Below the pieces are notes generated by a model. It was given only the letters and a program-made list of their open reading frames with translations, did no database searches and had not been told where the DNA came from. Both the position numbers and the translations under genes were made by a program. From NCBI RefSeq assembly GCF_900110275.1, contig NZ_FODC01000004.1:186001-250000 (forward strand): a stretch of DNA of 64,000 nt, read 5' to 3'. This document shows positions 36,009-38,822 of the stretch, one piece after another (within the stretch, counting starts at the first letter, position 1; every line of letters begins with the position of its first letter). This DNA is from Duganella sp. CF517 (GTDB lineage: Bacteria > Pseudomonadota > Gammaproteobacteria > Burkholderiales > Burkholderiaceae_D).

Positions 36009-37703
36009 TTAAGCCGCGACCGCGCCCTGGGCTTGCGCCGCTTCGATGGTGTTCAGCTGGCGATTGACCGCGCTGAGCACCGCCTTGAACGAGGCGGTCA
36101 GGATGTTGCTGTCGGTGGCCGCGCCGAACAGGGTCGGGCCGTTGGCCAGCCGCAGTTCGACATAGCATGCCGCCTGGGCGTTGGCGCCCGAGCCGATCGA
36201 GTGCTCGTGGTAGTCCATCAGTTTGATGTCCAGGCCGAGCGCGTCGACGAAGGCGTCGATCGGGCCGTTGCCGCCGCCTTGCAGCGCCATCGGCGCCTGG
36301 CGGTGGGTCAGGTTGATGTCGATCTGTACCGGCTCGTCGCTGGTGGTGTCTTCCACCATCTTGTGCGAATTGTAGGCGTACGGCGCGTTCTGTTCGAAGT
36401 ACTCTTTGCTGAAGATGTCGTAGATGCCTTCGGCGGTGATTTCCAGGCCGGTGGCGTCGGCCACCGCCTGCACCGCGCGGCTGAACTCAATCTGCAGGCG
36501 GCGCGGCAGCACCAGGCCGTAATCCTGCTCCAGCAAGTAGGCCATGCCGCCTTTGCCGGACTGGCTGTTGACGCGGATGACGGCGTCGTAGCTGCGACCC
36601 AGATCGGCCGGATCGATGGGTAAATACGGAATCTCCCAGATCGAGCCTTCCTTCTGCTGCGCGAAGCCCTTCTTGATCGCGTCCTGGTGCGAGCCGGAGA
36701 AGGCGGTGAACACCAAATCGCCCACGTATGGATGGCGCGGATGCACCGGCAACTGGTTGCACTCCTCGACGCACTTGCGCACTTCGTCGATGTCGGAGAA
36801 GTCCAGGCCCGGGTGCACGCCCTGGGTGTAGAGGTTCAAGGCCAGGGTGACCAGGTCGACGTTGCCGGTGCGTTCACCGTTGCCGAACAGGCAGCCCTCG
36901 ACGCGGTCGGCGCCGGCCATCACGGCCAACTCGGCCGAGGCGACGGCGGTGCCGCGGTCGTTGTGCGGGTGGACGCTGATGATCAGCGAATCGCGGCGCG
37001 CCAGTTTGCGCGACATCCATTCGATCTGGTCGGCGTAGACGTTCGGCGTGCTGCATTCGACCGTCGACGGCAGATTGATGATCATCTTCTTGTGCGGCGT
37101 CGGTTCCCAGATCGCGGTGACGGCGTCGCAGATATGCTTGGAAAAATCGAGTTCGGTGGTGGAGAACGACTCCGGCGTGTATTCGAAGCCCCAGTCGGTC
37201 TGCGGGTGCTGCTTGATCAACTCCTTGACCAGGGTGGTGCCGGTGGTGGCGATGTTGGTGATCTCTTCGCGCGACATGCCGAAGACGACCTTGCGGAACA
37301 CCGGCGCGACCGAGTTATACAGGTGGACGATGGCGCGCTTGGCGCCGGCCGCCGCTTCCACGGTGCGGCGGATCAGTTCATCGCGCGACTGGGTCAGCAC
37401 GATGATGGTGACGTCGTCGGGAATGCGGTTTTCCTCGACCAGCTTGCGCACGAAGTCGAAGTCGGTCTGCGACGCCGAAGGGAAGCCCACTTCGATTTCC
37501 TTGAGGCCGATCTTGACCAGCAGTTCGAAGAAGCGCAGTTTCTTCTCGGGGCTCATCGGCTCGATCAGCGCCTGGTTGCCGTCGCGCAGATCGGTGCTCA
37601 TCCAGATCGGCGGCTTGGAGATGATATTGTTCGGCCATTGGCGGTCGGACAATTGAACTGGTGGGAAGGCGCGGTACTTCGCTGCTGGGTTCTGCAACAT
37701 CAT
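36009..37703 (-). CDS. leuA: 2-isopropylmalate synthase
   Basis: 564 residues, the long LeuA form. DRE-TIM barrel with [15 protein letters not shown] (catalytic Arg/Asp), the metal-binding histidines in [22 protein letters not shown], and a C-terminal leucine-binding regulatory domain (about 430-555). It condenses acetyl-CoA with 2-ketoisovalerate in the first committed step of leucine synthesis. AGGAG lies 6 nt before the ATG. A long leader with a leucine-codon peptide precedes it, pointing to ribosome-mediated attenuation. Confidence 0.95.
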
Positions 37704-38018
37704 GGGGTGCTCCTGGGTCTTTTAAATTGGGAAGTGCTGGAAAGAGTGCTGCGATGCGCTGCTTGCGCCGGCGCTGCGTGTGGCGAAAGGCTGCCGGGCG
37801 GCCACGGAACGCTAGGCCAGGCAACCGATCGGTAGTTTTAGCAGTAGCGGCGCGGGGCCGAACGCACACGCGTCAGCCCGCGGCGCGATCGAATCGCCGG
37901 TGCGGGATGGAGCATGGGTGGCCGTGGTGAGCATCGGTGCGGACTTTCCTGGGTTTTTGGAGACTTGTGCGGCTTATGGCCGGCACGGGGTGCGTTGAAA
38001 ACGCGGCTGGAACGCGGA
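37704..38018 (-). other. leuA leader region downstream of the leader peptide
   Basis: About 315 nt separate the leader peptide stop from leuA and hold no other supported gene. On the minus strand ACGCG-CTTAATC-CGCGT spans the leader stop and is mutually exclusive with CGCG-TTCCAGC-CGCG followed by TTTT, a weak candidate for antiterminator versus terminator. Further on, GTGC-GGC/GCC-GCAC forms a bulged hairpin. I see no strong intrinsic terminator, so the mechanism downstream of ribosome stalling remains open. Confidence 0.4.
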
Positions 38019-38102
38019 TTAAGCGCGTGCTAGTAGGCGCGCTGCTAGCGATAGGCCAGCAGACGGCAGCAGGAAAGCGGATAGGTGCAGATGCGAAGTC
38101 AT
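38019..38102 (-). CDS. leuL: leu leader peptide, 27 aa, Leu-rich
   Basis: A 27-residue reading frame beginning MTSHLHLSAFLLPSAG with 8 leucines. Five of them are the codon CTA, very rare in this GC-rich genome, at positions 7, 17, 19, 23 and 24; the last two are consecutive. This mirrors enterobacterial leuL, where ribosomes stall on rare CUA codons when charged tRNA-Leu is short. It begins a few nt after a good promoter and reads toward leuA. No strong Shine-Dalgarno precedes it (AAGG 3 nt before the ATG region), as for a short 5' leader. Confidence 0.72.
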   Translation of the reverse strand: MTSHLHLSAFLLPSAGLSLAARLLARA

Positions 38103-38109
38103 AGGCCTT

Positions 38110-38139
38110 AATGTACGAGATCGCCTGCGTTGCTGTCAA
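38110..38139 (-). promoter_or_regulatory. leuL-leuA promoter
   Basis: A perfect TTGACA (38134-38139, read on the minus strand) and TACATT (38110-38115) are separated by 18 nt. Transcription would start just upstream of the leader peptide ATG. Confidence 0.65.
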
Positions 38140-38219
38140 GGGAATTGATGTGCGAGGCGAAAACCAGCAACGTATCGACGAAGGTAGAGCTCGTCGGCAG
38201 TGGTGCCCGTGGTTCTCAT
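38136..38219 (-). CDS. Possible small ORF, 27 aa, upstream of the leu promoter
   Basis: An ATG with AGGAGAG 4 nt upstream opens a 27-residue frame (MRTTGTTADELYLRRYVAG and on) whose TGA lies inside the leuA -35 box. The ribosome site is better than that of many genes here. No homologue comes to mind, and an upstream promoter is not evident. Chance is a real alternative. Confidence 0.25.
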   Translation of the reverse strand: MRTTGTTADELYLRRYVAGFRLAHQFP

Positions 38220-38384
38220 ATTGCTCTCCTGAATCATTGGTGCGGTCGAAGCGCGCACGTATTGGCATCGTCAGGTTTGGGCCCGGCCAGCCTGTTATGC
38301 TGGCGGGGCTTGCGCGTGGACTAGCGCAAGCCATCGGATGTGTTGATCGAGGAAGTCTGGCCGCTCGAATTTAAAGGAATAACG

Positions 38385-38822
38385 ATGGCGACATTGGAAC
38401 GGGCGATCGCGATTGCCGCGGGCGCCCACGCGGGGCAGGTCGACAAAGCGGGACAGGCGTATATCCTGCATCCGCTGCGAGTGATGCTGCGGGTGACGTC
38501 GGCGCACGAGCGCATGGCGGCGGTGCTGCACGACGTGGTCGAAGACACGCCGGTGTCGCTGCGGCAGCTGGTCGAGGAAGGGTTCGCGCCGGAGGTTATC
38601 GGCGCCGTCGACGCACTGACCAAGCGCCCGGGCGAATCGCGCATCGACGCCGCGCGCAGGGCGGCCGCCGACCCCGTCGCGCGGCAAGTGAAGCTGGCCG
38701 ATAACGCCGAGAATATGGACTTGTCGCGGATTGAAAACCCCACCGACCGCGATTTCGCACGGCTGGAGGAATACAAGGCCGTGCGGGCAATCCTGCTGGG
38801 GCGTGAAGGCGCGGTTGATTAA
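38385..38822 (+). CDS. HD-domain protein, SpoT/MESH1-like hydrolase
   Basis: 145 residues with the RelA/SpoT-hydrolase-type HD motif: AGAHAGQVDKAGQAYILHPLRV, AAVLHDVVEDTP (HD pair) and VKLADNAENMDLSRI. The stand-alone size matches small alarmone hydrolases (MESH1 type), which cleave (p)ppGpp or related nucleotides. AAAGGA lies 6 nt before this ATG. No synthetase domain is present. Confidence 0.82.
   Translation: MATLERAIAIAAGAHAGQVDKAGQAYILHPLRVMLRVTSAHERMAAVLHDVVEDTPVSLRQLVEEGFAPEVIGAVDALTKRPGESRIDAARRAAADPVARQVKLADNAENMDLSRIENPTDRDFARLEEYKAVRAILLGREGAVD

Follow-up and report, generated by a model that had tools for sequence, protein, structure and literature searches.

Is the short leucine-rich reading frame ahead of leuA in this Duganella genome an attenuator of the enterobacterial kind, or is leuA tied to the leucine supply by a leader of different design? 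The window, by which we mean the whole stretch of 64,000 nucleotides analyzed here, comes from a genome of the Oxalobacteraceae, near Duganella. It carries leuA at 36009..37703 on the minus strand, as is the case for all features described below unless stated otherwise, and the gene encodes a 2-isopropylmalate synthase of 564 aa and of the TIGR00970/NF002991 type. Divergent from leuA, on the plus strand at 38385-38822, lies a gene for a 145-aa HD-domain protein that resembles the N-terminal hydrolase part of RelA/SpoT and is possibly a small alarmone hydrolase.

Enterobacterial leuL (Rfam Leu_leader, RF00512) encodes a short peptide with rare CUA leucine codons and operates through a terminator and an antiterminator. 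The original prediction had placed a leader peptide of 27 codons in front of leuA and had suspected that it departs from leuL. A leucine leader ahead of leuA is borne out by comparison with relatives, but it comprises two frames, of which the 27-codon one comes first. Judging from sequence comparison, a conserved leucine-responsive leader is very likely real, and it is probably a leucine-sensing, ribosome-operated leader of leuA that combines two serial leader peptides with a conserved pseudoknot.

Promoter and first leader frame

The predicted promoter and the 27-codon frame with eight leucine codons, five of them CTA, are present as described. A −35 box TTGACA (38134..38139) and a −10 box TACATT (38110..38115), separated by 18 nt, form the sole promoter-like site on the minus strand within 37400-38600, where shuffled sequences yield 0.2 such sites over both strands. 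Seven nucleotides downstream of the −10 box is the ATG of ORF1 (38019..38102), which encodes the peptide MTSHLHLSAFLLPSAGLSLAARLLARA and has its leucine codons in the order CTG CTA CTG CTG CTA CTA CTA CTA. CTA is indeed a rare codon here: it accounts for 17 of 1905 leucine codons (0.9%) in the 44 predicted genes of the window, in which no stretch of 27 codons holds more than 2. Given the codon usage of the window, five CTA among eight leucine codons would be expected by chance with P ~3e-9.

Comparison of the regions upstream of leuA in relatives revealed that the ORF1 frame, its CTA codons, and the promoter are kept in ~75 Oxalobacteraceae loci. With few exceptions, these loci follow the arrangement TTGAC(A/G), 17-18 nt, TAYATT or TAnAGT, 6-7 nt, ATG, and the −35 box is TTGACA or TTGACG in nearly all of them. 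Because the −10 box lies only 6-7 nt upstream of the ATG, the ORF1 transcript is probably leaderless and begins at or beside the start codon.

Second leader frame and pseudoknot

A second leader frame, ORF2 (37812..37934; 40 codons, MLTTATHAPSRTGDSIAPRADACAFGPAPLLLKLPIGCLA), is located between ORF1 and leuA. Three of its six leucine codons are CTA (P 1e-5 with window usage), and its C-terminal end is PLLLKLPIGCLA. In the window, ORF2 is preceded by the Shine-Dalgarno sequence CAGGAAAG (37944..37951). The ORF2 of the Oxalobacteraceae has its own Shine-Dalgarno sequence, and this sequence and the ATG are in frame with the downstream stem A motif described below in 52 of 53 unique sequences, at 17 different distances between 39 and 135 nt. 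An ending of the form LxLP[IT]GC[LRQ]A is common to the ORF2 of Oxalobacteraceae, Alcaligenaceae, Pandoraea, and Cupriavidus. The putative regulatory run of leucine codons at the end of the frame, CTACTGCTAAAACTA (37833..37847), keeps CTAnnnCTA immediately 5′ of the pseudoknot.

The predicted H-type pseudoknot (37780-37826) consists of an 11-bp stem A crossed by a 5-bp stem B. The 5′ strand of stem A, GGUUGCCUGGC (37816..37826), is made up of the last ORF2 codons, with which the 3′ strand, GCCCGGCAGCC (37789..37799), pairs. The loop of stem A contains the ORF2 stop codon as well as the strand GUGGC (37801..37805), which pairs with GCCAC (37780..37784) 3′ of stem A to form stem B. In some lineages the stop codon is shifted by 1-3 codons (TAG to TCG...TAA), and in nearly all listed loci it falls at or before this strand of stem B.

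Stem B was paired in 41 of 41 sequences, a set that had been chosen by GCC[AG]C, and a wider test was hence conducted on 68 sequences aligned with a model that knew stem A only. Double changes were observed at 8 of the 11 pairs of stem A and at 2 of the 5 pairs of stem B. Between 96 and 97% of the stem cells were paired, and all 500 shuffles and every slid version scored lower. Compensated versions of stem B in relatives are GCGGC/GCCGC, GCGAC/GUCGC, and CUGGC/GCCAG; Janthinobacterium has the stem A variant GCUUGCC/GGCAAGC. The loop that connects the stems after stem A is short, and the two stems may therefore form in alternation instead of coexisting. We also considered whether the pseudoknot could promote frameshifting but abandoned the idea, because no conserved slippery sequence was seen in the aligned loci.

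Distribution and link to leuA

A covariance model of the whole RNA motif, R1, matches the window at 37777..37847 (89.4 bits, E 1.1e-17), its one credible match in this genome. Across the family it found the motif in 62 of 116 genomes, with one match per genome. All of the 59 family matches that were checked lie 28-88 nt upstream of leuA; for the remaining 3 of the 62, the listed coordinates gave no link to leuA. Across the order there were 22 matches in 21 of 300 genomes, every one of which adjoins leuA (22/22), and the motif is found also in three genomes of other families within the class. Apparently two tandem leucine-rich leaders again accompany the motif at loci L174-L176, from two other families of the class. 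A search of Rfam with the window region and eight related loci returned chance matches only.

ORF2 and the pseudoknot are more widely conserved than ORF1. ORF2 was the only leader found at the Achromobacter, Bordetella, and Cupriavidus loci, and the Alcaligenaceae appear to do without ORF1. Three other loci (L045, L046, and L126) retain the promoter and ORF1 but have neither ORF2 nor the 5′ strand of stem A; here, ORF1 directly precedes leuA. The leuA loci of Burkholderia (L095, L098, L100, and L105) possess another, single leader rich in leucine and CTA, for example SLLLARSTGLGLLLRAS, and have no R1 match. A generic detector of a pseudoknot together with a leucine-rich ORF lacked specificity, with 28 of 147 shuffles scoring positive, and its results are not counted as evidence for new loci. 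At the level of sequence, comparison establishes both frames with their CUA codons, the position of the promoter, stems A and B, and the link to leuA as shared parts of this leader.

Predicted pairing of ORF1 with the ORF2 Shine-Dalgarno sequence

Within ORF1, the segment CGCUUUCCUGC (38069..38079) is complementary to CCAGGAAAGU at the ribosome-binding site of ORF2. The corresponding pair in Janthinobacterium is UCAAACUUCC/GGAAGGUUUGA, and Massilia has a third version. Matched duplexes of ORF1 with the ORF2 Shine-Dalgarno sequence (SD2) were stronger than swapped ones (p 0.0035 for 12 sequence clusters, several of which made no contribution), and the minimum-energy structure predicted for the window leader includes the ORF1:SD2 helix. 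For the window sequence by itself, the duplex was not above that obtained with shuffled ORF1 (z −0.35). The statistical and comparative evidence supports the assignment of an anti-Shine-Dalgarno segment in ORF1 that is directed at the next cistron, and this pairing suggests a relay from ORF1 to ORF2 and the pseudoknot, and from there to leuA. The majority of the ORF1 CTA codons are located 3′ of the anti-Shine-Dalgarno segment, so that a ribosome stalled on them would leave this segment uncovered.

Proposed mechanism

We tentatively propose, with less than even confidence, a serial relay in which a leaderless ORF1 would act through its anti-Shine-Dalgarno segment on the translation of ORF2, and a ribosome stalled in ORF2 would act on the pseudoknot and through it on leuA; the LEU element of Actinobacteria would then have a proteobacterial branch in the ORF2/pseudoknot core. 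The two-leader relay itself is supported but not proven. In the mechanism that we consider probable, the promoter would start the RNA at or beside the ORF1 ATG, ribosomes bound at the 5′ end would read ORF1, and CGCUUUCCUGC in ORF1 could pair with the ORF2 Shine-Dalgarno sequence. With ample leucine, ribosomes would clear ORF1, pairing of CGCUUUCCUGC with SD2 would follow, and ORF2 would be translated little. When leucyl-tRNA for CUA is scarce, ribosomes would stall in ORF1 and ORF2 would be opened. A second stall at the ORF2 CUA codons, directly against the pseudoknot, would then hold the leader in a leuA-permissive state. For the output step in the Oxalobacteraceae there are two candidates: Rho may terminate transcription within the C-rich leader, or leuA may be controlled at the level of its translation. 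In Achromobacter, Pandoraea, and Cupriavidus, the output step appears to consist of the Leu-codon region pairing directly with the leuA Shine-Dalgarno sequence. That ribosomes stall, which way the leader responds to leucine, and how it finally acts on leuA are inferences.

Candidate output steps and alternative explanations

Scanning the window leader for intrinsic terminators identified no terminator-like site, in agreement with the original prediction that a strong one is absent, and no U run directly after stem A or B was seen in the listed loci. In Rho-dependent attenuation, translation gated by ORF1 and stalled in ORF2 would shield a C-rich rut region, and Rho would stop transcription before leuA when leucine is ample. 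The lack of an intrinsic terminator in the leader is consistent with this, and so is nucleotide composition. The C/(C+G) ratio of the window leader is 0.625, which ranks it among the highest 0.1% of 398-nt windows from both strands, and values of 0.55-0.65 are found downstream of ORF1 in 81 of 81 loci; this concerns composition only, however, and codon choice can itself yield C-richness. Occlusion of the leuA Shine-Dalgarno sequence was not found in the Oxalobacteraceae, and the two-leader mgtCBR system suggests a possible link to Rho (PMC3641672). Pairing at the leuA Shine-Dalgarno sequence in Achromobacter, Pandoraea, and Cupriavidus points instead to a translational output in sister groups. 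That the output step is Rho-dependent termination at a signal in the C-rich leader, and not translational control, is a serious possibility that falls somewhat short of an even chance.

Purely translational attenuation, in which folding of the leader would mask the ribosome-binding site of leuA until stalled ribosomes expose it, draws on those sister groups. The Leu-codon region pairs with the leuA Shine-Dalgarno sequence in Achromobacter/Bordetella, Pandoraea, and Cupriavidus (p 0.0025 for matched against swapped partners), and a comparable base stem has been described for the LEU element (PMC1262725). In the Oxalobacteraceae, by contrast, the Leu run paired with the leuA Shine-Dalgarno sequence no better than swapped partners (p 0.70), and across ORF1, the spacer, the Leu run, and the pseudoknot no segment exceeded swapped partners (p 0.35-0.72). 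We do not claim a UGCUCC/GGAGCA match that recurs in Duganella as a pairing of this kind, given the swapped-partner results (p 0.35-0.72). A purely translational output is a reasonable possibility, though less likely than not.

The pseudoknot could alternatively serve to bind a protein or a small molecule, with the leader peptides in a secondary role. Strong conservation of both stems would fit such a site, and leader-codon mutations in Streptomyces coelicolor are described as unlike classical attenuation in the passages that cite them in PMC1262725. However, conservation extends to the ORF2 frame and to its CTA codons, both of which would be dispensable for a mere binding site; we consider this explanation unlikely. 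A classical leuL-type attenuator with an overlooked intrinsic terminator is very improbable: a Leu-codon leader does precede leuA, but the scan of the window leader for terminators was negative, the listed loci have no U run directly after the stems, the Rfam Leu_leader model does not match the window leader, and the missing U-tract largely refutes this explanation. The absence of an intrinsic terminator thus sets this leader apart from a classical leuL attenuator, as had been suspected from the outset. The idea that ORF1 is a chance reading frame without function is scarcely credible and was rejected, since short ORFs are frequent but the frame, its CTA codons, and the spacing between −10 box and ATG are shared across genera, and its CTA content has a P of 3e-9.

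Comparison with known leaders

By its anatomy and the type of LeuA, the leader proposed here appears to have its closest known relative in the actinobacterial LEU element, not in leuL. The LEU element combines a leader containing a leucine run, a pseudoknot, and a base stem of the Leu codons with the leuA Shine-Dalgarno sequence (Seliverstov et al. 2005, PMC1262725). Its authors preferred a protein for this element and left the mechanism open in 2005 (PMC1262725). In both cases the same type of LeuA is encoded downstream, a Leu-codon leader ORF (here ORF2) lies directly upstream of leuA, and the pseudoknot begins just past the Leu codons with a stop codon in or at its loop. Three fetched actinobacterial loci (L170-L172) have the same order of parts as the Duganella ORF2/pseudoknot, and R1 gave no match to the actinobacterial loci L170-L173. 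Some Burkholderiales (Achromobacter, Pandoraea, and Cupriavidus) likewise have a base stem in which Leu codons pair with the leuA Shine-Dalgarno sequence, whereas this stem is without support in the window and the Oxalobacteraceae (p 0.70). Additional differences are the leucine codons, which are CUU/CUC in Actinobacteria and CUA here, and the extra upstream ORF1 with its putative anti-Shine-Dalgarno segment for ORF2.

The similarity to leuL consists of a short leader ORF with clustered Leu (CUA) codons ahead of a leu gene. Unlike leuL, the leader described here has two ORFs and a pseudoknot, with neither a terminator/antiterminator nor an Rfam match. Leaderless polycysteine leader ORFs of mycobacteria, reportedly described by Canestrari et al. 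in 2020 (cited in PMC13236596), similarly place an amino acid-specific leader ORF at the extreme 5′ end of the transcript and lack an intrinsic terminator, but they are specific for cysteine and actinobacterial. To our knowledge, no pseudoknot or second ORF is associated with them. Salmonella mgtCBR also has two serial leader ORFs, mgtM and mgtP, in one mRNA leader (PMC3641672). These two ORFs respond to different signals in an independent and additive manner (PMC3641672), whereas here both ORFs are rich in leucine and ORF1 seems to act as a gate for ORF2. In a Pseudomonas putida truA (tRNA pseudouridine) mutant, LeuA protein was increased 4.2-fold (PMC7822408), as expected if leuA were also leader-controlled in that organism.

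Conclusions

We did not find a proteobacterial version of the LEU element in the searchable literature; subscription papers, including a 2004 survey of proteobacterial attenuators, were outside the scope of this search, and we therefore do not claim priority. Many Burkholderiales contain a conserved, unannotated pseudoknot leader of leuA that is in neither Rfam nor the searchable literature. Its anatomy is shared with an actinobacterial element for which the authors of 2005 left the mechanism open. Natural variants with or without ORF1, without ORF2, and with or without a base stem at the leuA Shine-Dalgarno sequence make the mechanism directly testable. If the proposed relay is true, two leaders in series for one signal would constitute an unusual design of an attenuation circuit, in which two successive tests for leucine would sharpen the response.
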